DNA of 64,000 nucleotides from a virus. The position numbers were made by a program, and so were the translations under genes. Location: the IMG/VR virus record IMGVR_UViG_3300042564_002819, positions 202,025-266,024 of that record. One strand, 5' to 3'. Below are positions 7,671 through 18,861 of the stretch, piece by piece (the stretch's first letter is position 1; every line of letters starts with the position of its first letter). The notes below the pieces were generated by a model that saw only the letters and a list, made by a program, of their open reading frames with translations, was not told where the DNA came from and ran no database searches.

Positions 7671-7907
7671 ACGGTATTTACCACAGGCCCTGGCCGCGAA
7701 GCGGTGCGTAGCAAATTTTTTAAGCAAATTTTTTACCCTATAATATACTCAGTTAACGGTAGAACAACAGAAAATCTACTGTGCCAGCGACCAGAGTACT
7801 ATTGCAACGTAAAATCGAAAAAAATGTAAGACCACGTCATACGGCCCCGTATGACACGTCGTTAGCCACCGTATGACACGGTCTTGATTTTTAGCTCATT
7901 TTATATA
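7671..7907. other. Non-coding interval with hairpins and 22-bp iterons
   Basis: No gene seen. It holds two AAATTTTTTAAGC-like copies (7709-7732), a TATAATATA box, and the iteron pair at 7831-7890. Confidence 0.5.
7831..7890 (+). repeat. 22-bp iterons, left edge of minus block
   Basis: CCGTATGACACG starts at 7847 and again at 7869 (period 22). A reversed copy, ACCACGTCATACGG, lies at 7831-7844. A 19-nt word here (CACGTCATACGGCCCCGTA, 7833-7851) recurs as its exact reverse complement at 25275-25293. Confidence 0.8.
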
Positions 7908-8147
7908 TTAGACTACACGTTGTATAACAATGTTCGACCCACTGTAGCGAAGCAGGTAGAGTGTTATAGCACTGTCTGAACCATGACTCACTGACAATGC
8001 TGCCCGACCGGATTCGGGCATTGGGCAAACAGTGAATCCTAGACTTTCAAATTGTGCAGCCACAGGCCGGAGTATCAGTGCATGTAGAGCACGAGTATAA
8101 CTGGAAGCCGTAACAGCAGGATCTACTGAGATGTGCCACGTTGCCAT
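7908..8147 (-). CDS. Small phage protein, paralogue of the next gene
   Basis: 79 aa. MATWHISV at the N-terminus and ALSVSHGSDSAITLY-LL near the C-terminus align with MYTWNIQI and FTVQHSRASAITVFML of the gene at 8149-8394, so the two are tandem duplicates. It starts one base after the upstream stop (TAG C ATG), so it is translated in series with it. Alternating hydrophobic strands suggest a small alpha/beta fold. No known family. Confidence 0.6.
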   Translation of the reverse strand: MATWHISVDPAVTASSYTRALHALILRPVAAQFESLGFTVCPMPESGRAALSVSHGSDSAITLYLLRYSGSNIVIQRVV

Positions 8148-8429: not shown

Positions 8430-8750
8430 CCTGCCCTACGGGCAGTACCGGTACCCCGGAGGGGTACTCGTATGATAAAAAAATTTGCTGCAAAAAAAAT
8501 TACAGGAGTACTTACAGTACCACGGTGGTCAGTTTTTGGCCCAAGGGGTTCCTGGGTTGTAAAAAAATTCTGCCGAGAAAATTTATATAGAAGTACTTAC
8601 AGTTTCAGGGTGGTGATTCGGCAACCCCAGGTTTGGCGTAGCGTGGGGGAAAGATTTGGCTGCCGCTGCGTTAAAAACTGTGTCAAGCATAAAACGCATA
8701 CGACCCCCCCGAGAAAAAAATATTTTTTTTATTTTACTATACGACACTTG
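8430..8750. other. Non-coding interval with hairpins and an 85-bp tandem repeat
   Basis: Contains CTGCCC-tac-GGGCAG (8430-8444) and GTACCCC-gga-GGGGTAC (8451-8467) hairpins and then the tandem repeat at 8475-8640. I see no gene: the frames open here lack a start site and normal composition. Confidence 0.5.
8475..8640 (+). repeat. Degenerate tandem repeat, period 85 bp
   Basis: Two units share AAAAAAATT near the start, then AGTACTTACAGT (8507-8518 and 8592-8603), then GGGTGGTGATTC-like sequence. Offsets agree at 85 bp. The conserved core AGTACTTACAGT suggests a protein site or structured RNA. Confidence 0.6.
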
Positions 8751-8763
8751 ACAAAAGTATTTT

Positions 8764-8794
8764 TGTTAGTGCAAGCACAGCACTTGCACTAACA
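8764..8794. repeat. Dyad D1 of the GTGCAAG family
   Basis: TGTTAGTGCAAG / CTTGCACTAACA, 12-bp arms, 7-nt centre. Related to dyads at 9705, 9805, 10075, 10491 and 10762. Confidence 0.75.
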
Positions 8795-8805
8795 GTTAGC
8801 TTATG

Positions 8806-9168
8806 TTACGCTGCGTGTTGTTGCTGTGCAACACTAGCGTTTTTGTATGCTTGCAACACTTGCAAAGCACTATGCAAGCAAAAATTAGTGTGTTGCTGTG
8901 CATACTTTTGTTTGCTTTGTGCAACAAGTATTGCAGCATTAATTGCGTGTTGCATGTTGTGCTGTGTTGCACATTTGCAAACATGTGCTGTGCAAGTGCA
9001 GCGTGTAGCATTGTTTGCTTGTGCAGCATAGTGCATGTTAAGCTGCATAAGTGCAACACTGTGCTGCACATAAGCTTTTGTTGCATTGTATTTGTAATAG
9101 TTAGCTTTTGCAGTGCTGTTATGCTGCGTTTGCTTTTTTGCGTAAGTGTTAAGCAAGTTGTTAAGCAT
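8806..9168 (-). CDS. Possible 120-aa protein without D, E, G, P or W
   Basis: Open frame read from ATG at 9168, with a promoter-like TTGCAT-17-TAAACA at 9206-9234. The product is helical-looking (for example HAINAAILVAQSKQKYAQQH) and rich in A, Q, N, H, K. Codon choice (GCA, AAC, CAG, CTT, AGC) matches the neighbouring genes. Against it: a sequence without GA or GG cannot contain a Shine-Dalgarno site or a TGA stop, so long frames arise easily. Basic, with no acidic residue. Real gene or by-product is open. Confidence 0.35.
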   Translation of the reverse strand: MLNNLLNTYAKKQTQHNSTAKANYYKYNATKAYVQHSVALMQLNMHYAAQANNATRCTCTAHVCKCATQHNMQHAINAAILVAQSKQKYAQQHTNFCLHSALQVLQAYKNASVAQQQHAA

Positions 9169-9205
9169 GTTGTGCTACTTTGCTGTTTGTGTTGCTGTTA
9201 CATAC

Positions 9206-9234
9206 TGTTTACAGTATTGCGTTAGCTAATGCAA
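9206..9234 (-). promoter_or_regulatory. Possible promoter of 8806-9168 frame
   Basis: TTGCAT, 17 bp, TAAACA. Spacing fits the block's other promoters; -10 is imperfect. Confidence 0.35.
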
Positions 9235-9312
9235 GTAAAATAACGCATAATAAAATTGCTTTATTAGTGCAAACAACGCAATATTATTACGTGCTTTTTT
9301 TGCATTTTGTTG

Positions 9313-9341
9313 TTGCGTTTGCTGTGCTGTGCTGCTATACA
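9313..9341 (+). promoter_or_regulatory. Promoter of the + strand gene at 9379
   Basis: TTGCGT, 17 bp, TATACA; one of few + strand promoters in the minus block. Confidence 0.6.
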
Positions 9342-9378
9342 GTATGCATACAGCAACTAACAGCAAAGTGTAACACAC

Positions 9379-9681
9379 ATGCAATACGCAAACTATGCTA
9401 GCGTTGTTAACGCTATTAACTGTTATGACGACACTGTGCTTCGTGAAGCACAGCAGCTTGCACTAGCTATAGCACAGCACAACGAAGACTACTGCACAGA
9501 CAGCTTGTTTGACGCAGTTAACGAAAGCGTTGACGACTTGGGTATGCAAGCTTGTTGGCAGCACACGGAAATGCGTAGTGCAATTGAACAGTATAACGAC
9601 GAGTGCTACAGCACAGCAATTTACGAGCTTGTAATTGCAATGCTAAAGCGTAGCTCAGCATACGAGCAAGCGTTTACGTAA
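9379..9681 (+). CDS. Small acidic phage protein, unknown function
   Basis: 100 aa (MQYANYASVVNAINCYDD at the start), acidic and probably all-helical, with five cysteines. It is the only clear + strand gene between 7.2 and 25.6 kb. Promoter TTGCGT-17-TATACA lies upstream; the leader falls in the GA/GG-free zone and so has no ribosome-binding site. In the gene itself GA appears where Asp/Glu need it, but CC is absent and TC nearly so. The dyad at 9705 follows the stop. Confidence 0.55.
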   Translation: MQYANYASVVNAINCYDDTVLREAQQLALAIAQHNEDYCTDSLFDAVNESVDDLGMQACWQHTEMRSAIEQYNDECYSTAIYELVIAMLKRSSAYEQAFT

Positions 9682-9704
9682 CGCAAGCTTTTAAAAAAAA
9701 CAAG

Positions 9705-9732
9705 CACAGTGCAAGTGTAAGCTTGCACTGTG
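9705..9732. repeat. Dyad D2 of the GTGCAAG family
   Basis: CACAGTGCAAG / CTTGCACTGTG, 11-bp perfect arms, 6-nt centre, 23 nt after the stop of the + strand gene. An A8 run precedes it. Confidence 0.75.
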
Positions 9733-9750
9733 TCGTCGTTTGTGCAGTTT

Positions 9751-9802
9751 GTTATTTTGTTATTTTGTTATTTTGGGGCGGGCCGGGGGATAGAACTTGG
9801 GG
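9751..9802 (+). other. Triple 8-bp repeat followed by a G-quadruplex-type motif
   Basis: GTTATTTT three times in tandem (9751-9774), then G-runs at 9775-9778, 9780-9782, 9785-9789 and 9799-9802 with loops of 1, 2 and 9 nt. Striking because its surroundings almost lack GG. Confidence 0.6.
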
Positions 9803-9804
9803 TA

Positions 9805-9839
9805 GCTAGTGCAAGCATTACACTTGCACTGGCTGTTTT
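9805..9839 (+). terminator. Dyad D3 with + strand T-run
   Basis: GCTAGTGCAAG / CTTGCACTGGC followed by TGTTTTTTT: a good + strand terminator for the gene at 9379, placed at the 3' end of the opposing gene. Confidence 0.6.
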
Positions 9840-9840
9840 T

Positions 9841-10023
9841 TTACAGTTTGTTTATGCGGCGCAGGCAGTAGGCGAATTGACGTGCAGGACGGGTGCGAGT
9901 GCTAATAGACATGCTGTTAGCATAGTATTCGTAAACTTCGTTATAAAGGGCTCCGGAGCTGTCAAGTTCTTTTGTTTGTTTGTATACTGCAAGTTCCTGC
10001 TTTGCTGCGTTGCTAAGTTCCAT
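9841..10023 (-). CDS. Small phage protein, unknown function
   Basis: 60 aa, MELSNAAKQELAVYKQTKEL at the N-terminus and a basic C-terminal third (STRTRPARQFAYCLRRINKL). AAAAAGGAAAC gives a good ribosome-binding site 9 nt before ATG. Own promoter TTGCAC-17-TATACA. Likely a helical DNA- or protein-binding early protein, which is inference. Confidence 0.6.
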   Translation of the reverse strand: MELSNAAKQELAVYKQTKELDSSGALYNEVYEYYANSMSISTRTRPARQFAYCLRRINKL

Positions 10024-10055
10024 TTTGCAGTTTCCTTTTTGCTGTTTGTTTGTAT

Positions 10056-10084
10056 TGTATAGCAGCTTGTATTAGCTAGTGCAA
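10056..10084 (-). promoter_or_regulatory. Early promoter with -35 inside dyad D4
   Basis: TTGCAC, 17 bp, TATACA, for the gene 9841-10023. Confidence 0.7.
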
Positions 10085-10106
10085 GCATTATTTTACTTGC
10101 ACTAGC
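10075..10106. repeat. Dyad D4 of the GTGCAAG family
   Basis: 11-bp perfect arms GCTAGTGCAAG / CTTGCACTAGC around CATTATTTTA. The whole 32-bp element is identical to that at 10762-10793. Confidence 0.85.
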
Positions 10107-10111
10107 AATTA

Positions 10112-10122
10112 ACAGCGGGGCC
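10112..10122 (+). repeat. Oriented 11-mer ACAGCGGGGCC, copy 1
   Basis: Just beyond the stop of the minus gene at 10139. Its wider context (CCTTAGTAGACCCGTTTGTT) resembles copy 7. Confidence 0.85.
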
Positions 10123-10138
10123 TTAGTAGACCCGTTTG

Positions 10139-10438
10139 TTACAAAACACAGTATTCCGTTTGAGGAACAAGTTCGTTTTCCTCAATGTAACGCAACACGC
10201 TAACAAACTGCTCCCGCATGTCAGTGTCAAAATACACAATTGTCGTGTGCAGTTCAACAGCGTCGCTCGTTGCAATAAACGAAGCAAGTGCGTCAGCAGC
10301 ACGGGCAATGTCGTTTGCAAACATTGCAATGTGTTCCTGAGGAATTGCAGTTGCAAAATAGTTTTGCGTGTAAGCTGCAATAGCGTCACGCATTGCTTTT
10401 ACAGTGTAAAACTTACGCAGCACAGTCATTTTACGCAT
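10139..10438 (-). CDS. Small phage protein, unknown function
   Basis: 99 aa, MRKMTVLRKFYTVKAMRDAI at the N-terminus. GAGGGA lies 8 nt before ATG. The sequence has an AIAAYTQNYFATA helix, an alanine-rich helix and an acidic C-terminus. Own promoter TTGCAC-17-TATACA. No recognised family. Confidence 0.65.
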   Translation of the reverse strand: MRKMTVLRKFYTVKAMRDAIAAYTQNYFATAIPQEHIAMFANDIARAADALASFIATSDAVELHTTIVYFDTDMREQFVSVLRYIEENELVPQTEYCVL

Positions 10439-10471
10439 TGTGTATTCCCTCTATGCGTTGCTTATGTGTAC

Positions 10472-10500
10472 TGTATAGCAGACAGTGTCGGCTAGTGCAA
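10472..10500 (-). promoter_or_regulatory. Early promoter with -35 inside dyad D5
   Basis: TTGCAC, 17 bp, TATACA, for the gene 10139-10438. Confidence 0.7.
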
Positions 10501-10531
10501 GCACAAAATGCACTTGCACCGGCAGTTTTTT
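10491..10531 (+). terminator. Dyad D5 with + strand T-run
   Basis: GCTAGTGCAAG / CTTGCACCGGC then AGTTTTTT. Serves as -35 region on the minus strand and terminator-like hairpin on the plus strand. Confidence 0.55.
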
Positions 10532-10709
10532 AGTCTTGCAATTGCAATTGCAATGTGTTAAGCTTTTGCAGTGCAGCGTCTTCTTCTGCTAGTGCAAGCT
10601 TATAAACTGCATAGCTGCCGCCTTGCATAGCTTCTGCTCGGCACTGTGCAGTAAGTGCTACAGCGTTTGCGTAACGCTTTTGTGCATTAGCAAGTTTTTT
10701 GTTTTGCAT
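10530..10709 (-). CDS. 59-aa helical phage protein
   Basis: MQNKKLANAQKRYANAVAL at the N-terminus, LAEEDAALQKLNTLQLQLQD at the end: one or two amphipathic helices, possibly a coiled coil. GGAG lies 8 nt before ATG; promoter TTGCAC-17-TATAAA upstream. Ser only as AGC and no Leu CTC, in line with the island's avoidance of TC and CC. Function unknown. Confidence 0.6.
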   Translation of the reverse strand: MQNKKLANAQKRYANAVALTAQCRAEAMQGGSYAVYKLALAEEDAALQKLNTLQLQLQD

Positions 10710-10742
10710 AGCGTGTGCTCCGTTTTGCTACGTTATGCGTTG

Positions 10743-10771
10743 TTTATAGCAGCTTGTGTCTGCTAGTGCAA
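10743..10771 (-). promoter_or_regulatory. Early promoter with -35 inside dyad D6
   Basis: TTGCAC, 17 bp, TATAAA, for the 59-aa gene. Confidence 0.7.
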
Positions 10772-10799
10772 GCATTATTTTACTTGCACTAGCAGTTTT
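10762..10799 (+). terminator. Dyad D6 with + strand T-run
   Basis: Same 32-bp element as D4, followed by AGTTTTTT. Confidence 0.6.
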
Positions 10800-10804
10800 T
10801 TGTG

Positions 10805-10996
10805 TTACGCTTCGTCTGCGTCTTCCTCAATTTGCTCCAACATAGCCGTAATGTCGTAGCCAACCGTCTGCATTGCAATAACAATCTGTTTCGCTGCTTC
10901 GTATGCATCCCAGCTTTGCACTTCGTCAGCATCCGTGCTGTCGTATGCATTAGCAGCAATTTGTGCAATGTTAGCAAACAGTTCTTCGCGTGTCAT
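10805..10996 (-). CDS. Small acidic phage protein
   Basis: 63 aa from MTREELFANIAQ; the frame stays open upstream but AGAGGGA precedes this ATG by 6 nt and the promoter lies just beyond. Acidic, all-helical, ending MLEQIEEDADEA. Acidic early proteins of this size are often DNA mimics or inhibitors of host enzymes, which is only a suggestion. Confidence 0.65.
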   Translation of the reverse strand: MTREELFANIAQIAANAYDSTDADEVQSWDAYEAAKQIVIAMQTVGYDITAMLEQIEEDADEA

Positions 10997-11028
10997 GTGC
11001 AGTCCCTCTTGTGTTGCCCTATGTGTTA

Positions 11029-11057
11029 TGTATAGCACAGCACACAGCACTTGTCAA
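11029..11057 (-). promoter_or_regulatory. Early promoter overlapping dyad D7
   Basis: TTGACA, 17 bp, TATACA for the gene 10805-10996. Confidence 0.7.
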
Positions 11058-11087
11058 GTAAAAAGTGCTGTGTGCTGCAAGTTTTTT
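11038..11087 (+). terminator. Dyad D7, 15-bp arms, + strand T-run
   Basis: Arms 11038-11052 and 11063-11077 (CAGCACACAGCACTT and its complement) then GTTTTTTT. Overlaps the -35 and spacer of the minus promoter. Confidence 0.6.
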
Positions 11088-11353
11088 TAAATATTACACG
11101 CTATAAGTGCTTCGTCAAGCATGTCGTGTACTGCACTGTCGTACGCATAGTTATACTCCGTAGCAAAATCCACGTCGCTGCTGCACATAATTGTGTCATA
11201 TTTGTTAATGTTATACTGTTTAAATGCAGCAATTATGTCGTTTGCACTATTACAAAAAACGTCAACAGTTTTATTAATACGCAGTACAATTGCGTTTGTA
11301 GCGTCGTCAAGCATTACAAAAACGTAATTAGTATTTGCTACAGTGTTTTGCAT
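11087..11353 (-). CDS. Small phage protein, unknown function
   Basis: 88 aa from MQNTVANTNYVFVMLDDAT; GAGGAGC precedes this ATG, so longer starts are rejected. Strands YVFVML and AIVLRI, then helical and acidic segments, CSSDVDFATEYNYAYDSAVHDML. Promoter TTGCAA-16-TATAAC. Left end of the compositional island lies with its upstream region. Confidence 0.6.
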   Translation of the reverse strand: MQNTVANTNYVFVMLDDATNAIVLRINKTVDVFCNSANDIIAAFKQYNINKYDTIMCSSDVDFATEYNYAYDSAVHDMLDEALIACNI

Positions 11354-11392
11354 ATTGTGCTCCTCGCATATGCTGTGTTGCTTACAAATACA

Positions 11393-11420
11393 GTTATACA
11401 CTATGCAGCACAGTTTGCAA
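11393..11420 (-). promoter_or_regulatory. Early promoter of 11087-11353 gene
   Basis: TTGCAA, 16 bp, TATAAC. Confidence 0.6.
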
Positions 11421-11480
11421 GTAACGTTTTGTTACAGTTTTAGTGCGTGTTGTAACAATACGTTATCTCCTACCTCTGCC

Positions 11481-11828
11481 TCACTCTACACCCCAGCCAC
11501 AGTATTTCTTCCCACGCACAATATCAAAAAACTCTGCACCTGCAACCGCACCAATCCAGTCGTAAATGTAGTCTCGTGCTGCCGTGTCCATCTCCCACAG
11601 CCGGTCTTCAACCAATCGCCAATCACCTTCGGCTAGCAGCACACAAACATCAAGCCCAGCACTGGCATCTCCCAACAGCATAGCTCGCATAGAACGATCC
11701 GCTGCCCAACGCTCCTGGTCCGTCCGCATCTTTTCCATTACCAGCAGTTCCACTTGAAGTGCAAGTTCCTGCCAGTTGATGTGGACAGTGCCGGTAAGAG
11801 TGGGTTCATTTACAGTTACGATAGACAT
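11481..11828 (-). CDS. Phage protein, unknown function
   Basis: 115 aa, MSIVTVNEPTLTGTVHINWQ at the N-terminus, then a helical W/D/E-rich body (QERWAADRSMRAML, DWRLVEDRLWEMD) and a C-terminal KKYCGWGVE. AGAGGAC precedes ATG. Base composition is normal again from here on, with TC and CC common. Confidence 0.65.
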   Translation of the reverse strand: MSIVTVNEPTLTGTVHINWQELALQVELLVMEKMRTDQERWAADRSMRAMLLGDASAGLDVCVLLAEGDWRLVEDRLWEMDTAARDYIYDWIGAVAGAEFFDIVRGKKYCGWGVE

Positions 11829-11862
11829 CTGTTTGTCCTCTGTGTTGCTGTCTGTTGTATGC

Positions 11863-11891
11863 TGTATACAGTGTTTTCAGCTTGGGGTCAA
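11863..11891 (-). promoter_or_regulatory. Early promoter of 11481-11828 gene
   Basis: TTGACC, 17 bp, TATACA; the -35 lies inside the end of the upstream gene. Confidence 0.7.
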
Positions 11892-12050
11892 CCCCAAACG
11901 ATCGTTTAGGATTGAATTGATTTTACGGAGGATCATGTCTTTGATGCATGGCGGCGCAGGATCGTCCTCCAGCAGCATAATTGCATCCAGCAGTTGCATA
12001 TCCGTGCAGGCCTCAAGACGAGCCAGTTCTTCAGCCATTTCTTTTTGCAT
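11877..12050 (-). CDS. 57-aa acidic helical protein
   Basis: MQKEMAEELARLEACTDMQL at the N-terminus, then LLDAIMLLEDDPAPPCIKDM, ending LGLTPS. ACAGGAG precedes ATG; promoter TTGCAT-17-TATAAC. Its last codons carry the next gene's -35 box. Helix-turn pattern with no recognised family. Confidence 0.6.
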   Translation of the reverse strand: MQKEMAEELARLEACTDMQLLDAIMLLEDDPAPPCIKDMILRKINSILNDRLGLTPS

Positions 12051-12076
12051 TGCAGTTTCTCCTGTGCTGTGCCGTT

Positions 12077-12105
12077 GTTATACAGACTGTAGGAGCCGAA
12101 TGCAA
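12077..12105 (-). promoter_or_regulatory. Early promoter of 57-aa gene
   Basis: TTGCAT, 17 bp, TATAAC. Confidence 0.65.
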
Positions 12106-12108
12106 CCG

Positions 12109-12381
12109 TTATTTTCGCCGGCCTGGGAACTGAATTACTGTGGCAGATTCTGCCACATCTGCTGGCATCAGATCACTATACAGCGGGGCCGAATCCAGTG
12201 TATAGTCTTCAACAGCCATCAGTTGTGCTGTAACATCAAATACCGTTTCCAGGTTCTCTGGGTAGCTGTCGGTACCGTATGAGTCGATGGCTGTGTTGAC
12301 CGCAGCACGTAGAGCTCGCAGCACAATCTCAGGTGCAGTGTAGCTCTCAAGAATTCTTCGCAGTTGTTCAGTAGGGTCCAC
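12109..12381 (-). CDS. Small phage protein, unknown function
   Basis: 90 aa with a GTG start; AAGGA lies 8 nt upstream. Helical N-terminal half (PTEQLRRILESYTAPEIV), acidic middle, C-terminal ATVIQFPGRRK. No promoter of its own: it follows the gene at 12439 across a strong hairpin (12402-12430). It contains the oriented 11-mer copy 2 within its codons. Confidence 0.6.
   Translation of the reverse strand: MDPTEQLRRILESYTAPEIVLRALRAAVNTAIDSYGTDSYPENLETVFDVTAQLMAVEDYTLDSAPLYSDLMPADVAESATVIQFPGRRK
12180..12190 (+). repeat. Oriented 11-mer ACAGCGGGGCC, copy 2
   Basis: Inside the coding region 12109-12381; flanked by CTATAC and GTATAG. Confidence 0.85.
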
Positions 12382-12401
12382 AATCTGTTTCCTTGGGTTG
12401 G

Positions 12402-12430
12402 AGGTGTTCGCCTACTGTGGGCGAACACCC
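12402..12430 (-). terminator. Intergenic hairpin, 11-bp stem
   Basis: GGTGTTCGCC and GGCGAACACC arms around CACAGTA between two co-directed genes. No T-run follows, so it may moderate rather than stop transcription, or protect the message. Confidence 0.5.
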
Positions 12431-12438
12431 ATTGTTGA

Positions 12439-12783
12439 TTAGTCCAGACGCGAGCCAGCGTAGGCAGTGAAGCCATAACGCTTCAGCACTTCTGCGGCAG
12501 CACGAGCACCAGCTTCTTTGGTTTCGATGTTTTGTGCACCGTGACGGCTTGGGTTCCAGCATTCGTAAGCCTTGCCGGTCCAGTCTTTGCGGAAGCCCAG
12601 AGCTTCGATATCGCGACGTTCAATCTTACCATCGCGGGTGTTGCCCTTGTGCTTGGGATAGATCGTAACCCAAGCAAAGCCACACATGCCGCGGTCTACT
12701 CCGCCCATTTGTTCAGCAAAGAACTGGTTGGCAGCATCACGGGCAGCAGTTTCAAACTCTTCGCGGATTGCAGTGGTGTCCAT
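12439..12783 (-). CDS. Conserved phage protein
   Basis: 114 aa from MDTTAIREEFETAARDAANQ; AAGGAGACC precedes this ATG. Conserved-looking centre DRGMCGFAWVTIYPKHKGNT, then RDIEALGFRKDWTGKAYECWNPS and ending YAGSRLD. I recognise this as a protein shared by diverse phages, without known function; the W-rich alpha/beta pattern suggests an enzyme or binding fold. Confidence 0.7.
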   Translation of the reverse strand: MDTTAIREEFETAARDAANQFFAEQMGGVDRGMCGFAWVTIYPKHKGNTRDGKIERRDIEALGFRKDWTGKAYECWNPSRHGAQNIETKEAGARAAAEVLKRYGFTAYAGSRLD

Positions 12784-12813
12784 CAGTGGTCTCCTTGTTT
12801 GCTCTATGCCTAA

Positions 12814-12842
12814 TGTATAGCAGATCACAGTCTCGGGGTCAA
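12814..12842 (-). promoter_or_regulatory. Early promoter of 12439-12783 gene
   Basis: TTGACC, 17 bp, TATACA. Confidence 0.75.
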
Positions 12843-12895
12843 CAGGAAAAATAACCCGCACAATCAGATTGTGCAAACCGTTTCGCATATCGTAT

Positions 12896-12906
12896 ACAGC
12901 GGGGCC
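12896..12906 (+). repeat. Oriented 11-mer ACAGCGGGGCC, copy 3
   Basis: One base beyond the stop codon of the minus gene at 12908. Confidence 0.85.
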
Positions 12907-12907
12907 A

Positions 12908-13213
12908 TCAGTTGTGGTAGGTCTTGGTTACGCGGAGAACTTCGCCATAGCAGTTGATCTCGTAGAGGTATGTCCAATGACGACGATATTCAACTTCCTG
13001 ACGGCATACACGGTAAGGATCTGGCTCTTGGTAATAAACCACAGGCGGCGGATATTCGGTTTGTGGATACACCACCTGCGGGCGTGGCGCCTTGAGTGCA
13101 TCTACTACGATTGCACCCACAATGAATCCGCCGAGGATCTTTTCGAAGTCACCTGCGTGAACGGGTGCAGCAAATCCCAGTGCCACCATTGAGGCAAGAA
13201 TCATTTTACGCAT
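12908..13213 (-). CDS. Exported small protein
   Basis: 101 aa. Signal peptide MRKMILASMVALGFAAPVHA with an AHA-G cleavage site. The mature part starts GDFEKILGGFIVGAIVVDAL (a hydrophobic helix) then a Pro/Tyr-rich linker (QVVYPQTEYPPPVVYY) and a basic/aromatic C-terminus with two cysteines. Probably periplasmic or envelope-attached, perhaps superinfection exclusion or lysis related. AAGGAGACC precedes ATG. Confidence 0.65.
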   Translation of the reverse strand: MRKMILASMVALGFAAPVHAGDFEKILGGFIVGAIVVDALKAPRPQVVYPQTEYPPPVVYYQEPDPYRVCRQEVEYRRHWTYLYEINCYGEVLRVTKTYHN

Positions 13214-13236
13214 GTTCGGTCTCCTTGTATGCTCTT

Positions 13237-13265
13237 ACAGTATATATCTTAAGAGCAGATGTCAA
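13237..13265 (-). promoter_or_regulatory. Early promoter of exported-protein gene
   Basis: TTGACA, 17 bp, TACTGT (TATACT overlaps at 15 bp). Confidence 0.6.
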
Positions 13266-13452
13266 CCCTCTTTGAACGAGCAAACCTAATTAGATCTCTG
13301 TCGACGGAGGTCAATCTTTGGACATCGTATCCAAAAGGTGTATTGACACTTTCCAATCGAGCTGCTAAGTTGGCTGCGGCATTAGCAATGGTGTCGTTCG
13401 AGGAATTCTCAGCTAGGTCTCTGAGATCTTGCATTATACTGTATAAGGTCAT
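13249..13452 (-). CDS. Small phage protein, third gene of an operon
   Basis: 67 aa from MTLYSIMQDLRDLAENSSND; AAGAAGAAA precedes ATG. Helical first half, then TPFGYDVQRLTSVDRDLIRFARSKRVDICS. No promoter of its own; it follows the membrane protein at 13503 and the lipoprotein at 13673. Function unknown. Confidence 0.55.
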   Translation of the reverse strand: MTLYSIMQDLRDLAENSSNDTIANAAANLAARLESVNTPFGYDVQRLTSVDRDLIRFARSKRVDICS

Positions 13453-13502
13453 TTTCTTCTTTTTGTTGACGGGCAGTTTAGTGTCTTGCCCAGGACACCG
13501 TC

Positions 13503-13676
13503 TCATTCGAGAGGTTCAGTGCAGTCGCAGTCCACAAACTCGTAGCGGCCTGCGTCAATCTTGGCTAGCCATTTGCCAAATCCTGTAGGATCTTCCAGTG
13601 CAATAATCAGTAGCACTATCGTAAACAACAGGAAAAAGCTCAGCAGCATATCGCGGATGTCGGCAAAAACGTTCAT
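13503..13676 (-). CDS. 57-aa single-span membrane protein
   Basis: MNVFADIRDM then a membrane helix LLSFFLLFTIVLLIIALEDP, followed by TGFGKWLAKIDAGRYEFVDC and a C-terminal DCTEPLE. Its start overlaps the lipoprotein stop (ATGA), so the pair is translated together. The GFGKWLAK and CDCTEPLE parts resemble small proteins seen in other phages. Likely inner-membrane partner of the lipoprotein, possibly in lysis or exclusion. Confidence 0.6.
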   Translation of the reverse strand: MNVFADIRDMLLSFFLLFTIVLLIIALEDPTGFGKWLAKIDAGRYEFVDCDCTEPLE

Positions 13677-13852
13677 TGGCATTCCTCTAGATTATAGTGT
13701 TCACAGTCAGCAAGGTACTCAGGATCCAATTGGGAAGCTAGGAAATTTTCGTGTGCAGCCCGGTCGGCCAATGCTTCGGCCGGTGAAGTTAATACAGGTA
13801 CGTCGCCACAAGCAGCTAACGTCAGTGCGGAAATCAACATCATCCACTTCAT
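13673..13852 (-). CDS. Small lipoprotein
   Basis: 59 aa from MKWMMLISALTLAACGDVPV: lipobox LTLAAC with the acylated Cys at residue 15. Mature part is acidic and ends DCEHYNLEECQ. AAGGG precedes ATG; promoter TTGACC-17-TATAAA upstream. The lipoprotein plus small membrane protein pair recalls phage spanin or exclusion pairs; inference only. Confidence 0.65.
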   Translation of the reverse strand: MKWMMLISALTLAACGDVPVLTSPAEALADRAAHENFLASQLDPEYLADCEHYNLEECQ

Positions 13853-13883
13853 CTGCAGGGCCCTTTCTCTTGCTCTGTATCTT

Positions 13884-13912
13884 TTTATAGCATCAAGCGA
13901 CACTGAGGTCAA
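13884..13912 (-). promoter_or_regulatory. Early promoter of lipoprotein operon
   Basis: TTGACC, 17 bp, TATAAA. Confidence 0.75.
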
Positions 13913-13915
13913 CCA

Positions 13916-14284
13916 TTACCAGACGTGAATAGAAAGACTTTCTGTGTTGTGTTTCCAGTTCATTTCTTTGCCGCCTGCTGATTCAATGCTTTTGCGGAAT
14001 GCCGTGCTGTCACGACGGCTCTTAAGCACATACCGTTGAACTTTGACTTCGGTGTGTGCAGGACGACGCTTGGTTGCAGGACGTGCAGTTTCATAGACTG
14101 CACCGTAGCTGGCAAAGTAGTCCTTGACACAGTCAACAACAGCGGCTACGGCTGTTTGGTGTGCAAACGATCCAAACACATCCGGATGACGGTCCATGGC
14201 TGCTTCTGCACGACGATTGATGTCTTCGATAGCAAACCAACTGGAGCCGACACTGTGTGTCTCTTTGGTTTCTTCCTTAATCAT
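13916..14284 (-). CDS. Phage protein, unknown function
   Basis: 122 aa, MIKEETKETHSVGSSWFAIE at the N-terminus; an alanine-rich helix AHQTAVAAVVDCVKDYFASY; basic centre (RPATKRRPAHTEVKVQRYVL) and HNTESLSIHVW at the end. Start overlaps the upstream gene by 8 nt, with GGAG inside that gene's last codons: translational coupling. Basic, perhaps nucleic-acid-binding. Confidence 0.6.
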   Translation of the reverse strand: MIKEETKETHSVGSSWFAIEDINRRAEAAMDRHPDVFGSFAHQTAVAAVVDCVKDYFASYGAVYETARPATKRRPAHTEVKVQRYVLKSRRDSTAFRKSIESAGGKEMNWKHNTESLSIHVW

Positions 14285-14561
14285 AGTAATCTCCTACTAA
14301 GATGTATGTTGCAGGTGCACATTCTTCATTATCATTAGCATAGAGCAATCCGTCCTCGCGGTCAAGGAAAAAGTCCTTGCTTTCAGGATCGATATCATCT
14401 ACATCAACGAATTCAACCTGGCCGAGATAGGCAAAATCGTCGAGGCACCCGCAGCTTTGAACAAAGCGATACACTCCAGGCTTATCAACAGTCTTGCCGA
14501 TAATATCACTGGCTTCTCTCTGCGAGAATTCGTTGAGGTAGTCGATGCTGACTTTAATCAT
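14277..14561 (-). CDS. Phage protein, unknown function
   Basis: 94 aa from ATG at 14561 (a GTG one codon earlier is possible). MIKVSIDYLNEFSQREASDI at the N-terminus; QSCGCLDDFAYLGQVEFVDVDDIDP centre; acidic. The start overlaps the upstream stop as TGATG. Middle gene of a three-gene operon. Confidence 0.6.
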   Translation of the reverse strand: MIKVSIDYLNEFSQREASDIIGKTVDKPGVYRFVQSCGCLDDFAYLGQVEFVDVDDIDPESKDFFLDREDGLLYANDNEECAPATYILVGDYYD

Positions 14562-14704
14562 CACAGCTCTCCCTTGCGATGCTTTTGTTTGCGGGTGTAT
14601 TTGGTTTTGTCACGCACAGTGCGGACGCGGAACTGAGGTGTGGCAAGTTCACGTGCAACAGGGTTGCGACGCTGAATGTCTTCTGCACGGATTTGGATTT
14701 TCAT
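14561..14704 (-). CDS. 47-aa basic phage protein
   Basis: MKIQIRAEDIQRRNPVARELA, then TPQFRVRTVRDKTKYTRKQK and a basic tail RKGEL. GAGGAG precedes ATG; own promoter. It heads the operon with 14277 and 13916. RAEDIQRRNPVARELA recurs in phages to my knowledge; likely nucleic-acid or ribosome binding. Confidence 0.65.
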   Translation of the reverse strand: MKIQIRAEDIQRRNPVARELATPQFRVRTVRDKTKYTRKQKHRKGEL

Positions 14705-14734
14705 CGTGTTGCTCCTCGTTTGCCCTATACCGTT

Positions 14735-14763
14735 TATATAGCATTGAGTTCAGTTGGTGTCAA
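14735..14763 (-). promoter_or_regulatory. Early promoter of 14561-14704 operon
   Basis: TTGACA, 17 bp, TATATA; leader carries UAUAGGGCAAAC. Confidence 0.75.
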
Positions 14764-14947
14764 CCATTATCTTCTCAAGTTCGTCGACGTGATACATATA
14801 GCGTTGGCGAGTCTTGAACCTTTTATCAAGCCGCACACGAAGCCAACCTTCAACAAAGCCTTCATCTTCAACAGTGCCCAACAGGCCCTGGGTGGGACGA
14901 AGTGCTGGAGCACGGACCTTCACACGGTCTCCAATTTGGATTGTCAT
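14750..14947 (-). CDS. KOW/SH3-like small protein
   Basis: 65 aa from MTIQIGDRVKVRAPALRPTQ; a TTG 9 nt earlier is rejected since AGAGG fits this ATG. IGDRVKVRAP...GLLGTVEDEG...LRVRLD is the typical barrel of KOW/hypothetical RNA-binding modules. Co-directed after the gene at 14960. A similar barrel is in the gene at 20864. Confidence 0.6.
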   Translation of the reverse strand: MTIQIGDRVKVRAPALRPTQGLLGTVEDEGFVEGWLRVRLDKRFKTRQRYMYHVDELEKIMVDTN

Positions 14948-14959
14948 CTCTTTCAACCT

Positions 14960-15160
14960 CTATTTGAACTCTACTCTAACCAAATCGCCTTGTGGATTGA
15001 ACATGGTGCAGACTCTGTTGCCCACCGCCTTGACAGTGGTACGAGTTTGCCACCACAGTTCGGCTTCTGCCTCAGTGTCTACCAACACCGCATTCCACTC
15101 CAACGGTCCACCAGGATTATCTGCTGGTGGTTTGGAGAACTGTGTTCTTACTTGCCACAT
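14960..15160 (-). CDS. Small phage protein, unknown function
   Basis: 66 aa from MWQVRTQFSKPPADNPGGPL; GGAGAA precedes ATG. AVLVDTEAEAELWWQTRTTV helix and a C-terminal MFNPQGDLVRVEFK hairpin. The promoter has an 11-bp inverted repeat around the -10 box (15175-15205), so it is likely regulated. Confidence 0.6.
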   Translation of the reverse strand: MWQVRTQFSKPPADNPGGPLEWNAVLVDTEAEAELWWQTRTTVKAVGNRVCTMFNPQGDLVRVEFK

Positions 15161-15174
15161 CTGAATTCTCCGTG

Positions 15175-15205
15175 TTGCCCTATGCTCGGTTATAGCATAG
15201 GGCAA
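15175..15205. promoter_or_regulatory. Operator-like inverted repeat around -10
   Basis: TTGCCCTATGC / GCATAGGGCAA, perfect 11-bp arms, 9-nt centre that holds the -10 box TATAAC. Confidence 0.75.
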
Positions 15206-15217
15206 GGGTGGTGTCAA
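15189..15217 (-). promoter_or_regulatory. Early promoter of 14960-15160 gene
   Basis: TTGACA, 17 bp, TATAAC. Confidence 0.75.
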
Positions 15218-15801
15218 CCTCTGTCTGTGTAGAAGATGTGATTGTCGATACGCACCACACGTTCAAAACTCTTGGCCCAAGTGGGCTTGACAGATGCAGC
15301 GTGGAAGTAGGTCGCTCCCTCAGTGGGATCACGTTCTACTCCGTATGACTGTAGGACTTCTTCTGCAACGACTTGTGCAGTTGCCCAAGCGGCTTGGTCC
15401 TTAGGTCTATCGCTCTTGCCATCGTGTGTCCAGGAGAACTGTTGATCTTCCCACACTACAGCACAGATGGTATCGGGGAAGTCCGAGTCCATTACTCTGT
15501 TGAGTGTAACCCAGCCTACAAACTCCTGTCCTACCTTGCTCTCGCCACGAGATTCAAAATAGACATTCAGTGCTAGGCAGTGTCGGTCTTCTTTGCTGAC
15601 CTCAGCAAAGATGGCTTCGGGATCAGGGCGTGGCTGCATAGGTACAGGCACATGAACAATCCGTTCTACCACTCTGTCGATATACACTACTTCTTTGGGT
15701 TCGACGGCCGCTTTTGCCTCATCTGCCGTCAAGTAAACCACTGCCATTGCAACGATCACGGCTGAAGAAGCAACGCCGCCGATGATGGTACTCATCCTCA
15801 T
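15214..15801 (-). CDS. SleB-like cell-wall hydrolase with N-terminal membrane anchor
   Basis: 195 aa. Residues 3-24 form a membrane/signal-anchor helix, then a linker rich in V and P, and from about residue 74 the hydrolase_2 (SleB/CwlJ) domain: CLALNVYFESRGESKVGQEF, VTLNRVMDSDFPDTICAVVW, QQFSWTHDGK, and C-terminal TYFHAASVKPTW. The first E of YFESRGE is the likely catalytic acid. It would cut peptidoglycan from the periplasmic side, as a SAR-type endolysin or an entry/exclusion enzyme. AAAGGAGAA precedes ATG. Ends 4 nt inside the -35 of the next gene. Confidence 0.8.
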   Translation of the reverse strand: MRMSTIIGGVASSAVIVAMAVVYLTADEAKAAVEPKEVVYIDRVVERIVHVPVPMQPRPDPEAIFAEVSKEDRHCLALNVYFESRGESKVGQEFVGWVTLNRVMDSDFPDTICAVVWEDQQFSWTHDGKSDRPKDQAAWATAQVVAEEVLQSYGVERDPTEGATYFHAASVKPTWAKSFERVVRIDNHIFYTDRG

Positions 15802-15831
15802 TGGATTCTCCTTTTTGTCGTTCGTGTAATA

Positions 15832-15860
15832 GTTATACTGGTATTGCTCGGAGTAGTCAA
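15832..15860 (-). promoter_or_regulatory. Early promoter of SleB-like gene
   Basis: TTGACT, 17 bp, TATAAC. Confidence 0.7.
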
Positions 15861-15923
15861 CGTATATAATAGGAGTCAGCGAGATCTTGCTGGTTCCTAA
15901 GCAGGTTCTTGCTTAGCCTAGAA

Positions 15924-16382
15924 TCAGAAGTTAGGCTCGTAGTCACCGAACTCTTTATGCGTCAGCATCACTTGTTTATACAGTTGCGCCGCAGTAAGCC
16001 CACGATGCAGTCGTGCTAGACGGCTCATCGCAACTTGAATACGCTCGTCTGTGGGCTCTACAAAGCCGTCGTCGTCCGCTGCTACAGCCGTCTGTGCAGG
16101 CTTTACAGCACGTTCTTTGGCTGCTTTAGGCTTAGGTGCAGCGGCAGGCTCTCGGGCTGCTACACGCTGCAACAGTGCTCGTGCATCAGGTGTGCAAAAG
16201 GGCGACTCCAGCAAGTGTGCAGCGGCTGCCTCTCGAGTCATTGCAGTGGGCAGCTGGATCAACTGGATGTCAGTGTTCTCGCAGCGTTCCAGCATAGCAA
16301 TACGACCCGCAAGATCGTTTGCAACACGGAACTTAAGCTCACCATTTTCCTTGCTAGTGCCAGCAACAGTGAAAGTCTTCAT
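15924..16382 (-). CDS. Phage protein, paralogue of 17654-18121
   Basis: 152 aa from MKTFTVAGTSKENGELKFRV; AAGGAGATGCAAG precedes ATG. Residues 2-60 match the paralogue (KT-TVAG-S--NG, R-ANDL, LP-AMT-EAA-AHL). After a low-complexity A/K/P linker (KPKAAKERAVKPAQTAVA) comes an acidic helix and ARLHRGLTAAQLYKQVMLT. A small alpha/beta N-terminal domain on a flexible stalk; function unknown. Confidence 0.65.
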   Translation of the reverse strand: MKTFTVAGTSKENGELKFRVANDLAGRIAMLERCENTDIQLIQLPTAMTREAAAAHLLESPFCTPDARALLQRVAAREPAAAPKPKAAKERAVKPAQTAVAADDDGFVEPTDERIQVAMSRLARLHRGLTAAQLYKQVMLTHKEFGDYEPNF

Positions 16383-16393
16383 CTTGCATCTCC

Positions 16394-16516
16394 TTAGTCT
16401 GCATACTGAGCGTTGAACAATGCTGCCTTGAAGGTGCCACCGTGAACAATCTTGTTGTCTGCTAGGCGTTTGCCGAACCAAACATTACCTGCATTCCAGA
16501 ACGTCCAACCTTCCAT
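16394..16516 (-). CDS. 40-aa phage peptide
   Basis: MEGWTFWNAGNVWFGKRLAD then NKIVHGGTFKAALFNAQYAD. It has the same 16-nt leader (AAGGAGATGCAAGATG) as the gene that follows 11 nt later. Own promoter TTGCAC-17-TATACA. W/F-rich N-terminal half; unknown function. Confidence 0.6.
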   Translation of the reverse strand: MEGWTFWNAGNVWFGKRLADNKIVHGGTFKAALFNAQYAD

Positions 16517-16542
16517 CTTGCATCTCCTTGCGTTATGCACTG

Positions 16543-16571
16543 TGTATAGCAGAATCTTTCTGCCAGTGCAA
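16543..16571 (-). promoter_or_regulatory. Early promoter of 16394-16516 and 15924 genes
   Basis: TTGCAC, 17 bp, TATACA. Confidence 0.7.
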
Positions 16572-16585
16572 GAGAATAATTCCTC

Positions 16586-16614
16586 TTGATCCGGTGAGTT
16601 GTTTGTGTTATACA
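16586..16614 (+). promoter_or_regulatory. + strand promoter of RNA A
   Basis: TTGATC, 17 bp, TATACAAC; same design and spacing as the promoter of RNA B at 24964. Confidence 0.65.
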
Positions 16615-16664
16615 ACTTGTGAGGCCGGAGAGTTCCGTACGGGAGGGCACGGAGCCCTGAACCT

Positions 16665-16685
16665 ATGGTTTAATCATTAAACCAT
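16665..16685. repeat. Perfect 21-nt palindrome
   Basis: Centre C16675; arms ATGGTTTAAT / ATTAAACCAT. Copies at 25067-25083 and, altered, at 25130-25151. Could be an operator or the tail stem of RNA A. Confidence 0.8.
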
Positions 16686-16698
16686 TCAGTCAAGGGGA

Positions 16699-16720
16699 AA
16701 GGGTGCATTGCTGCACCCTT
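16699..16720. terminator. Hairpin AAGGGTGCA / TGCACCCTT
   Basis: Perfect 9-bp stem, 4-nt loop, between the end of RNA A and the convergent gene at 16729. May stop both transcripts; T-runs are poor. Confidence 0.5.
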
Positions 16721-16728
16721 GTTCTCGT

Positions 16729-16998
16729 TCACATCTGCCAATAAGCTTCGCTTGCGGGCGACATGTAGTTGGGCGTATTCACCGACTCCATGTATGACTG
16801 TCCAGTCATCAAGTTAGTGCGTTCTACTTGACGCTCGATGTTGTCTTGGAAGTAGGTGTATTCAGCAACCGCATAGTCGTTCCAGTTCAGGTAGCGTGTC
16901 ACATGACGCTTTGCTGCCTGCTCAGTTGCAAAGAACTCGTCGCCGTTTGCACGACGTGCGGTACGAGTAGTATCTTTACGGTAAACCACATAAGCCAT
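16729..16998 (-). CDS. Phage protein, unknown function
   Basis: 89 aa, MAYVVYRKDTTRTARRANGD at the N-terminus, then FFATEQAAKRHVTRYLNWND and aromatic YTYFQDNIERQVERTN. AAGGAGAGACACA precedes ATG. The first 60 residues resemble small phage proteins that keep the pattern Y-Y-----T---F-TE-AAKRH. Function unknown. Confidence 0.65.
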   Translation of the reverse strand: MAYVVYRKDTTRTARRANGDEFFATEQAAKRHVTRYLNWNDYAVAEYTYFQDNIERQVERTNLMTGQSYMESVNTPNYMSPASEAYWQM

Positions 16999-17026
16999 TG
17001 TGTCTCTCCTTGTTGCTTACAGTTAC

Positions 17027-17055
17027 ACAATATAGAAAAAGCGATAAGGGGTCAA
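17027..17055 (-). promoter_or_regulatory. Early promoter of 16729-16998 gene
   Basis: TTGACC, 17 bp, TATTGT. Confidence 0.65.
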
Positions 17056-17060
17056 GCCCC

Positions 17061-17564
17061 TTATTTCCACTCTTGTCCATCGGCACGGAGTGCAACAATA
17101 CTGTCCATTGCGAACGTGCGGATAACAACCTTGTTCTCAAGTCCGCCTTGCTCGCCTTCACGCTTTTCCGGAAGACCATCGATTGCCGATTCGTCAACCG
17201 GTTTTCCGTCGAGCAGGTATTGCACGTCGCCAGCACGGAGGAAGATTACTTCCAAGTAATGAGTACCTTTGTGTTCCACAAACGGCGTGCCTGCAATACG
17301 CTCGCCCCATGCACGAGGGCTGAGTTCAAAGCCGGCAGGGTCCTTGCCTTCTTGCTCCAAACGACGCAGCACCATTGCGTTATATGCACTGCCGTTGGTG
17401 TTGCTGAAGCACATAACAGTGGCACCAGTCATTGCCTTTGTAACACGGCCCTGCTGCGGGTTCTTCTTGCCACCTTTGAGCACAACCGAAGTCACAGTGT
17501 CCATGCCAACGAACGTGCCGCCTGCAAGTGTGTCGAACGCAGTCTTTACAGTTTGGAAGTCCAT
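17061..17564 (-). CDS. Conserved phage protein
   Basis: 167 aa, MDFQTVKTAFDTLAGGTFVG at the N-terminus; KGGKKNPQQGRVTKAMTGAT, AYNAMVLRRLEQEGKDPAGF and SPRAWGERIAGTPFVEHKG follow, then a beta-rich C-terminus (HYLEVIFLRAGDVQYLLDGK). I have seen this in T4-like and other marine phages without a function; strands around a basic patch suggest nucleic-acid binding. AAAGGAC precedes ATG. Confidence 0.7.
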   Translation of the reverse strand: MDFQTVKTAFDTLAGGTFVGMDTVTSVVLKGGKKNPQQGRVTKAMTGATVMCFSNTNGSAYNAMVLRRLEQEGKDPAGFELSPRAWGERIAGTPFVEHKGTHYLEVIFLRAGDVQYLLDGKPVDESAIDGLPEKREGEQGGLENKVVIRTFAMDSIVALRADGQEWK

Positions 17565-17595
17565 TGCGTAGTCCTTTCTGTTTGTCTATGCTCTA

Positions 17596-17624
17596 GTTAT
17601 AGCACCTAAGAGAAAGCGGTGCAA
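17596..17624 (-). promoter_or_regulatory. Early promoter of 17061-17564 gene
   Basis: TTGCAC, 17 bp, TATAAC; -35 lies in a GGTGCAAG / TGTACC dyad like those of the 8.8-10.8 kb island. Confidence 0.7.
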
Positions 17625-17653
17625 GCGTTATTTTGCCTGTACCGCCATTTTTT

Positions 17654-18121
17654 TTAGGCAGCAACTTCGGTCTGCTCAGCAGCCTTTGCAGCAATACGAG
17701 CAGCCAGTTTGGCTTTCTGCTCTGCCTTCTTTGCAAGCGTTTCAGCAATCAGCTGATCCAGCAACGCTTGACGAGCTTCTTTGGAAAGGAACTTGCCGCC
17801 TTCGCCGTGCGTCGGAATTTCAGCAATGGTGGGCAGCTTCATCGGACGGCCACGCTTGCCAGCAGCCTTCGGAGCATTCTTCTCAACGTAGGCTTCCAGT
17901 GCAGCCATCGCAAGTTCGGTTTGGAAAGCGGGCAGCGTCTTAAGGTGTGCCACAGCCGCCAGCTTGGTCATAGCTTCGGGCAGCTCAACGATCGCAATGT
18001 TCTCGTGGCCGGTGTATTCAAGCATATACAAACGAGTGTCAAAGCCATTGCTGAAGCGAGCTTTGGTCTTGCCGTTCAAAGTCGAAACGCCAGCAACAGT
18101 GTAGGTCTTGGTGTTGGTCAT
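17654..18121 (-). CDS. Phage protein, paralogue of 15924-16382
   Basis: 155 aa from MTNTKTYTVAGVSTLNGKTK; AAAGGAAC precedes ATG. The N-terminal domain matches its paralogue; the C-terminus differs: a Lys-rich stretch (NAPKAAGKRGRPMKLPTIAE) with an AT-hook-like GKRGRPMK, then a long charged helix (KKAEQKAKLAARIAAKAAEQ). DNA binding through the hook is plausible. Promoter at 18252-18280 gives a leader of about 120 nt. Confidence 0.65.
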   Translation of the reverse strand: MTNTKTYTVAGVSTLNGKTKARFSNGFDTRLYMLEYTGHENIAIVELPEAMTKLAAVAHLKTLPAFQTELAMAALEAYVEKNAPKAAGKRGRPMKLPTIAEIPTHGEGGKFLSKEARQALLDQLIAETLAKKAEQKAKLAARIAAKAAEQTEVAA

Positions 18122-18251
18122 TTTACAGTTCCTTTGTGTGTGTTTGTGTGTGTTTCTGTTGTTTAGTATTAGCATCATTGCTAACACAAGTCTAGTTCTT
18201 TTTTTAGGCAGCCTGCAATTTTTTTGCGTCTTGCTTGCTGTCTATGTGTTG

Positions 18252-18280
18252 TTTATAGTTCCTATCGTTGTGTGTTGCAA
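18252..18280 (-). promoter_or_regulatory. Early promoter of 17654-18121 gene
   Basis: TTGCAA, 17 bp, TATAAA; -35 at the end of the dyad 18277-18318. Confidence 0.6.
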
Positions 18281-18318
18281 CCGAAAAGTTGTCTATATCT
18301 AAACTTTTTTTCGGTTGC
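18277..18318. repeat. Dyad GCAACCGAAAA / TTTTCGGTTGC
   Basis: 11-bp perfect arms, 20-nt centre; lies between the end of the gene at 18330 and the next promoter. On the minus strand it can act as a terminator-like hairpin. Confidence 0.65.
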
Positions 18319-18329
18319 ATCTTTTTCTA

Positions 18330-18803: not shown

Positions 18804-18832
18804 GTGCATCCTCTTTTGCTGTTTGTGTTTAC

Positions 18833-18861
18833 AAGTTAGCAGAATCAAAAAGCATGGTCAA
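18833..18861 (-). promoter_or_regulatory. Early promoter of MGLDMYL gene
   Basis: TTGACC, 17 bp, TAACTT. Confidence 0.7.

Follow-up and report, generated by a model that had tools for sequence, protein, structure and literature searches.

Depletion of GR and YC dinucleotides that follows gene direction in a viral gene block and its relatives

A 677-nt island lacks GA, GG, TC and CC on both strands

How can a virus keep hundreds of consecutive nucleotides free of any G followed by a purine on either strand, and what would make it do so? The question was raised by an earlier note on the window (the whole 64,000-nt stretch of viral DNA analysed here), which had reported a 677-nt run without GA or GG (together GR) and without TC or CC (together YC). 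A dinucleotide count over the whole window confirmed this run at 8751–9427, with zero occurrences of each of the four steps, and with GA steps bounding the island exactly where the note had put them (8750–8751 and 9427–9428). From the base composition of the island itself about 130 of the banned steps would be expected, in agreement with the note's figure of over a hundred, and the second-longest run free of all four in the window measured 102 nt. Given the window step frequency of 0.180, the log10 probability of a 677-nt run is about –58 per start, and a chance origin was rejected on this basis. A simple-repeat origin, which the note had named as an argument against selection, found no footing in the window either, as Tandem Repeats Finder gave no array inside 8751–9427.

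The near 26 copies of TGCA that the note had mentioned were counted as 26. In our judgement, this enrichment is largely a product of the allowed steps, of GCA and TGC codons and of promoter palindromes, so that the suggested binding array is unneeded. At Rfam gathering thresholds no known RNA family was found in the island, as the window matched only with tRNAs and a tmRNA that lie at other places. RNA of the island folded better than shuffled sequence on both strands (z of –3.4 and –6.3; 20 shuffles each), for which the palindromes and inverted repeats account as well as a structured RNA would. The features of the island are the following:

8751–9427, both strands: island free of GA, GG, TC and CC, 677 nt
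8767–8793, no strand: palindrome TAGTGCAAGC..CTTGCACTA, at the 3′ end of the minus-strand gene 8806–9168
8806–9168, minus strand: predicted 120-aa gene in the island, without D, E, G, P or W; its leader ACAGCAAAGTAGCACAAC replaces a Shine-Dalgarno site

In the surrounding zone the ban follows gene direction

The island forms the core of a larger zone (8710–11692), in which the ban outside the 677 nt is strand-specific and tracks gene direction. In 200-nt bins, the plus strand of about 10800–11600 contained no GA or GG and many TC and CC, and the ORFs in this part lie on the minus strand; the plus-strand ORF 9379–9681 displayed the opposite pattern. Because the plus strand there is without GA and GG for 963 nt, the coding strand of these minus-strand genes is without TC and CC. 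Genes of the zone, in other words, have a coding strand free of YC (equal to a template strand free of GR); the 677-nt island is clear on both. Outside the zone, the longest runs in the window were at most 145 nt (YC-free) and at most 109 nt (GR-free), and no other part of the virus record to which the window belongs (330,024 nt) had a segment with a score of 30 or more. Its further features are:

8710–9441, plus strand: YC-free run, 732 nt
9379–9681, plus strand: 100-aa ORF whose leader lies within the island; its sense strand has 2 YC and 20 GR
9957–11692, minus strand: zone with a nearly YC-free coding strand (20 YC in 1736 nt)
10113–10122, minus strand: GGCCCCGCTG element, just 3′ of the stop of gene 10139–10438
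10139–10438, minus strand: 99-aa ORF with 9 residual YC, some from its two Pro codons; orthologue in L098 from 6708
10530–10709, minus strand: 59-aa zone ORF, from the ORF list
10641–11603, minus strand: core of the minus-strand zone, coding strand with 0 YC (plus strand GR-free), 963 nt
10745–10797, minus strand: promoter-like unit with palindrome, repeated at 10058–10110 (92% over 53 nt), with a diverged copy at 10459–10503
10805–11050, minus strand: zone ORF, used in the codon counts in its 63-aa form from an internal ATG; similar ORF at L098 8360–8551
11087–11353, minus strand: 88-aa zone ORF of a 14-member family, 0 YC

Purged zones recur in relatives

The earlier note had proposed counting dinucleotides in relatives as well, and such counts revealed that purged zones recur. 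Relatives were fetched as 80 viral loci around the helicase and 80 around the AAA-ATPase (19033–20031). Of the 80 AAA loci, 45 extend 4.8 kb or more upstream of the ATPase; among these, a zone segment with a score of at least 40 was found in 15 of the 26 loci with an ATPase identity of at least 60% and in 2 of the 19 loci below 60%. A locus was counted if it held such a segment anywhere and on either strand, weak ones included (26 YC in 1296 nt for L109; 24 in 1300 for L116), and near-duplicates exist among the loci (L122/L124, L106/L107, L147/L159 and L179–L181). YC-free stretches extended over 2078 nt (L078), 2043 nt (L179) and 1102 nt (L098), and low-YC zones held 1 YC in 2252 nt (both L180 and L181), 3 in 1717 (L115), 6 in 2476 (L111) and 18 in 3568 (L102), L078 and L179–L181 being near-copies. 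Runs cleared of all four steps measured 783 nt in L108, 533 and 377 nt in L147 (with near-copy L159 alike), and 424 and 322 nt in L156. No zone segment was detected at a score of 30 in record G008, the helicase of which is 82% identical in the best segment. As a separate observation, an almost cleared island at 20044–20745 of L147/L159, near the end of record G006, consists partly of repeated AGCGCATAGCA units.

Jumbo phages of the PA5oct and Atu_ph07 type resemble the present virus in their DnaB: the helicase near the zone has about 52% identity (over 97%) to its counterpart in PA5oct-group phages, and 51.5% (over 87%) to the one in Atu_ph07. The PA5oct group additionally has an island of 149 nt free of all four steps (L182 5211–5359, corresponding to NC_071039.1 239311–239459), which lies between an HNH gene and gp143 and carries GCGCAAATTTGCG repeats. 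The 291 nt around it are 97.3–100% identical in 11 Pseudomonas phage records, and it thereby offers a small example in culturable phages. These phages differ, however, in that no long zone was present in the parts scanned (50 kb of Atu_ph07, 50 kb of Phosso and 31 kb of PA5oct). Among the open-licence papers searched, mostly by listings, no published description of such zones was found.

Coding-strand YC is removed almost completely, and GR where avoidable

In 17 pooled zones, coding-strand TC and CC stood at 0.03 and 0.06 of their outside level, while all other steps remained at 0.70 of it or above, AC and GC went up, and no T-containing step rose in exchange (TT 0.96, CT 0.73). As the 17 zones had been selected by YC score, this pooled YC depletion is partly there by construction, which holds less for the GR, promoter and amino-acid results. 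The outside reference was the same strand downstream of the zones, covering 15 of the 17 zones for the dinucleotide pool, all 17 for the coding counts, and 16 for both the noncoding and the YC-context counts. All 16 of the 16 NYC and YCN contexts were depleted, with CCC, CCG and GCC depleted least, which we ascribe to the GGCCCCGCT element.

Codon counts were based on ORFs called mechanically (from ATG, non-overlapping, longest first), comprising 73 zone ORFs with 6,836 codons against 22,899 codons outside. Avoidable YC within codons amounted to 0.003 per codon in the zones versus 0.112 outside, and YC across codon junctions was used in 0.021 versus 0.418 of the opportunities. Serine was encoded as AGY in 301 of 307 cases in zone ORFs versus 639 of 1257 outside, and proline codons dropped to 19 of 6,836 (0.28%) versus 709 of 22,899 (3.1%). 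Coding-strand GR is also reduced where it is avoidable and not beside the obligatory GA or GG of Asp, Glu and Gly: third-position G fell to 4.1% versus 25.3% outside before codons starting with A, and to 4.3% versus 19.4% before Ala and Val codons, but was not reduced before Asp, Glu and Gly codons (24.2% versus 16.7%). In noncoding zone DNA, sense YC was down about 12-fold and GR outside TTGAC and Shine-Dalgarno motifs about 3-fold, indicating that the strand asymmetry is not limited to coding sequence.

The purge furthermore belongs to the location rather than to the protein, since 13 members of one protein family carried 0–3 YC, whereas a 234-nt homologue outside a zone (in L130) carried 19. 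A gene crossing the zone end in L122 likewise had 10 YC where five aligned relatives have 0 or 1. Homologues with at least 30 YC per 1000 made up 8 of 167 hits, and there were few other out-of-zone homologues among the loci.

The depletion reaches into promoter-like cores

The core after TTGA was GR-free in 84% of 56 internal zone promoters and 78% of the 9 first zone promoters (three of which open a second zone segment), compared with 19% of 441 promoters outside. The mean number of YC in these promoter-like cores was correspondingly 0.16 (internal), 0.22 (first) and 1.61 (outside), and a YC in the spacer was present in one of the nine first promoters (L105). The –35 box itself was affected too: TTGA was used by 2 of the 9 first promoters versus 394 of 441 outside, and the other 7 had TTGC or TTTA, neither of which contains GA and which were found in 47 of 441 outside. 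It is mainly because the –35 box of a first promoter is absent from its own transcript that we prefer DNA over RNA as the probable target. For internal promoters this argument is weaker, since they stand in tandem arrays and could be transcribed from upstream.

Strong inverted repeats (z below –2 against mononucleotide shuffles) enclosed 75% of 65 zone promoters versus 25% of 120 sampled outside. Long inverted repeats were seen surrounding the –35 box of zone promoters in L098–L156 as well as in the window. Several of these repeats follow an A-run, so that, to antisense transcription, they would look like intrinsic terminators.

Islands free of GR and YC on either strand probably encode proteins that use 15 kinds of amino acid

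A scan of every frame in the examined loci for ORFs that start with ATG and reach 80 aa or more gave 5,060; nine of them lacked D, E, G, P and W, and all nine were located in cleared islands. They represent five distinct genes, since two of the nine read the window island in other frames and two are copies of the gene in L147. In the relatives these ORFs are:

L108 13030–13548: ORF without D, E, G, P and W, 172 aa
L156 6915–7166 and 6418–6660: ORFs without D, E, G, P and W, 83 and 80 aa
L147 17815–18174: ORF without D, E, G, P and W, 119 aa

The minus-strand gene of L156 has a homologue in L102 (34% identity, E 3e-6), an ORF at 7684–7929 with one P, 3 YC and no D, E, G or W, and the window ORF 8806–9168 has a coding-like composition by codon position (G1 0.24, G2 0.09). 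The islands cleared on both strands are probably genes and their products predicted proteins. The note had rightly stated that the ban excludes a Shine-Dalgarno site: of six start codons within or next to fully cleared islands, four follow a AGCAAAGT-type leader (those of the window on its minus and plus strands, of L108, and of L156 on the plus strand) and two do not, L156 minus having CGGAAG and L147 neither leader type.

The predicted 120-aa protein of the window had no clear homologue, and its single-sequence fold was poor (pLDDT 48) and uninformative. Searches with 10 zone proteins against PHROGs, Pfam and PADLOC each gave no useful match, the one weak hit in PHROGs having no known function; the fold of one zone-protein family (pLDDT 82) had no PDB match at E ≤ 0.001, three zone proteins had no match in annotated phages, and one had none in genome contigs. 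A charge below –0.08 per residue was found for 56% of 77 zone proteins versus 26% of 214 outside. Many unrelated zone proteins start with MQN, MQT, MLN or MLT (ATGCAAAAC and similar), which suggests a selected start context.

Which agent or process might the zones evade?

The explanation that we favour, though tentatively and with somewhat less than even confidence, sees the zone as a block of accessory and probably early genes, from which selection removed GR and YC steps from promoter to terminator, since an agent acting on DNA would harm expression, and most so with a G on the template strand. In such a scheme, the block would belong to the immediate-early genes of a giant bacterial virus family, and the putative agent, either a host enzyme or a base mark, would act on DNA at 5′-GR-3′/5′-YC-3′. 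A G on the template strand, which puts YC on the coding strand, would do the most harm, and a G on the other strand less, so that transcription units would be cleared from promoter through terminator; clearing of both strands would lead to predicted proteins that do without D, E, G, P and W, often with another sequence in place of the Shine-Dalgarno site. We infer the earliness of the block from its consensus-like promoters, its small and often acidic proteins, and its patchy presence. Several observations weigh against this explanation: the strand asymmetry extends to noncoding zone DNA, most zone promoters stand in tandem arrays, first promoters number only nine, one of them with YC in its spacer, and CAjan, although modified at GA and GGC, had no such zone in the part scanned (50 kb). 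Slightly more doubtful, and possible at most, is that infected cells hold an agent which acts at GR/YC in DNA and blocks transcription, and that the phage answers with target-free units, up to proteins made of 15 kinds of amino acid. The nearest analogue in logic might be phage T5, whose first-step-transfer DNA has no EcoRI sites: in both cases, a defined gene block would lack a target that the rest of the genome keeps. Different from T5, however, are the target of two bases, the dependence on coding direction, and the altered proteins and ribosome-binding sites. The note's general idea of an escape from an agent at GR or YC steps is strengthened by the relatives, but the candidates that it named did not stand. 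An explanation by a symmetric restriction or PAM motif predicts no dependence on gene direction, and coding-strand YC was indeed far more depleted than coding-strand GR, contrary to the direction-independent depletion that marks restriction avoidance.

The main rival, which we regard as unlikely, is that zone mRNAs are without 5′-YC-3′ in order to hide early transcripts from Rho-dependent termination. The primary RNA site of Rho prefers a 5′-YC-3′ dinucleotide, and Rho requires several sites, so that zero YC over about 2 kb is stricter than its evasion would need. Recognition of C-rich rut RNA by the primary site is documented in passages of PMC11018607 and PMC4132721 that give no preference for YC. 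The coding-strand C context of the zones fits such binding, and the YC depletion is indeed present in the DNA inferred to be transcribed, is strand-specific, covers untranslated regions and ignores codon boundaries; leftover YC is moreover often found within the C-rich GGCCCCGCTG element, and 4 of 19 zone segments have a GGCCCC no more than 60 nt from their 3′ end. Avoidance of rut sites would, however, predict neither the GR-poor promoter-like cores and the –35 boxes without GA (nine first promoters), nor the loss of avoidable sense GR, nor islands clear on both strands. An endoribonuclease of host or phage that cuts mRNA at YC and less at GR, with sites lost from mRNAs made during its activity, would suit the all-or-none stringency and the strand rule, as a single cut would kill its target. 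The effect on promoter cores and –35 boxes argues against it, as does the fact that GR and YC form a complementary pair, which points to double-stranded DNA. We know of no endoribonuclease with a specificity for YC and a lesser one for GR, and consider this explanation quite unlikely.

Very unlikely, in our estimation, is that G in GR context is modified in the virion DNA (in the 7-deazaguanine manner proposed by the note), with the zone as an unmodified template for first transcription. DpdA marks GA and GGC in phage CAjan (PMC8306585), and a two-base GC motif is given for another phage base-modifying enzyme, CmoX of S-B43 (PMC12783734); these set a precedent for recognition of two to three bases at the DNA level. 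Of the 8 family records, 7 have FolE and 4 have QueD, the record of the window (G000) not being among these 4, and radical SAM proteins were present in the search for preQ0 genes. QueC, however, had only weak matches in 2 of 11 records, a C5 DNA methylase was found in 0 of 11, and the DpdA families phrog_887 and phrog_7068 matched 0 of the 8 family records and nothing in PA5oct, while detecting the CAjan control. PF01702 matched 0 of 11 records, which is uninformative since the same profile misses the DpdA of CAjan. A scan of 50 of the 60 kb of CAjan also revealed no purged zone, the YC-free or GR-free runs all being at most 112 nt. A search by gene content for a writer of the putative mark yielded two ORFs of G000 shared with the zone-bearing records G003 and G006 and absent from the zone-less G008, neither of them plausible; 18 further G000 ORFs were common to G003 alone, without a G008 match. 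That a YC-preferring cytosine deaminase mutationally converted the sites seems more improbable by far. A dCMP-type deaminase, found in 3 of 8 records (not G000), was rejected as a candidate. YC is the classic deaminase context, and L078 alone had more T in its zone (27.5%, up from 23.7%) and more TT (97 per 1000, up from 61); there, A also increased from 33.4% to 41.1%, with A and AA rising as much as T and TT. Simulated saturation (assuming simple base composition and rates of our choice) gave about 14% GC and TT at 229 per 1000, to which the L156 islands come closer (23% and 27% GC; TT 111 and 224 per 1000). The window island (39% GC, TT 140 per 1000) and the L108 island (36% GC, TT 66) do not agree with it, and as the pooled loss of TC and CC came with no matching gain of TT and CT while AC and GC rose, cytosine deamination fits poorly. 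The odd mutational process of the earlier note, at least of the deaminase type, is hence contradicted by the composition of most zones.

Whatever its cause, a ban on dinucleotides that takes up to five amino acids out of predicted proteins and replaces a ribosome-binding signal constrains coding sequence strongly. If the favoured DNA-acting agent is that cause, the avoided sites already provide its specificity and strand preference, making a direct search possible, and the zone would mark a class of genes whose possible part in the onset of infection by these giant phages deserves study.

Other elements and cargo

A strand-specific element, roughly AGGCCCCGCTGYTAG, was observed on the minus strand of window 10113–26995 and on the plus strand of L098–L159. 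The GGCCCCGCT sequence was present 8 times on the minus strand and 0 times on the plus strand of 10113–26995 and 0 times elsewhere in the 330-kb record, and in the AAA loci it occurred 70 times on the sense strand and 0 times on the antisense strand. The AGGCCCCGCTGYTAG-like element often lies 3′ of a stop codon, with two window copies (12189 and 19820) inside ORFs. Repeats containing CCGTATGAC were seen at two distant sites of the window (7835–7890 and 25280–25337). The window also carries a tmRNA of the alphaproteobacterial (permuted) type and three tRNAs (Arg, Met and Leu), at 59062–59401 and 20320–20606. According to Pfam, the cargo of record G000 (L003–L017 and the window) includes a CHASE2 and nucleotide cyclase domain, CsgG, curlin repeats, a fatty-acid desaturase, a bilin reductase, an ADP-ribosylglycohydrolase, NAMPT and a SAM synthetase, which is unusual for a phage.
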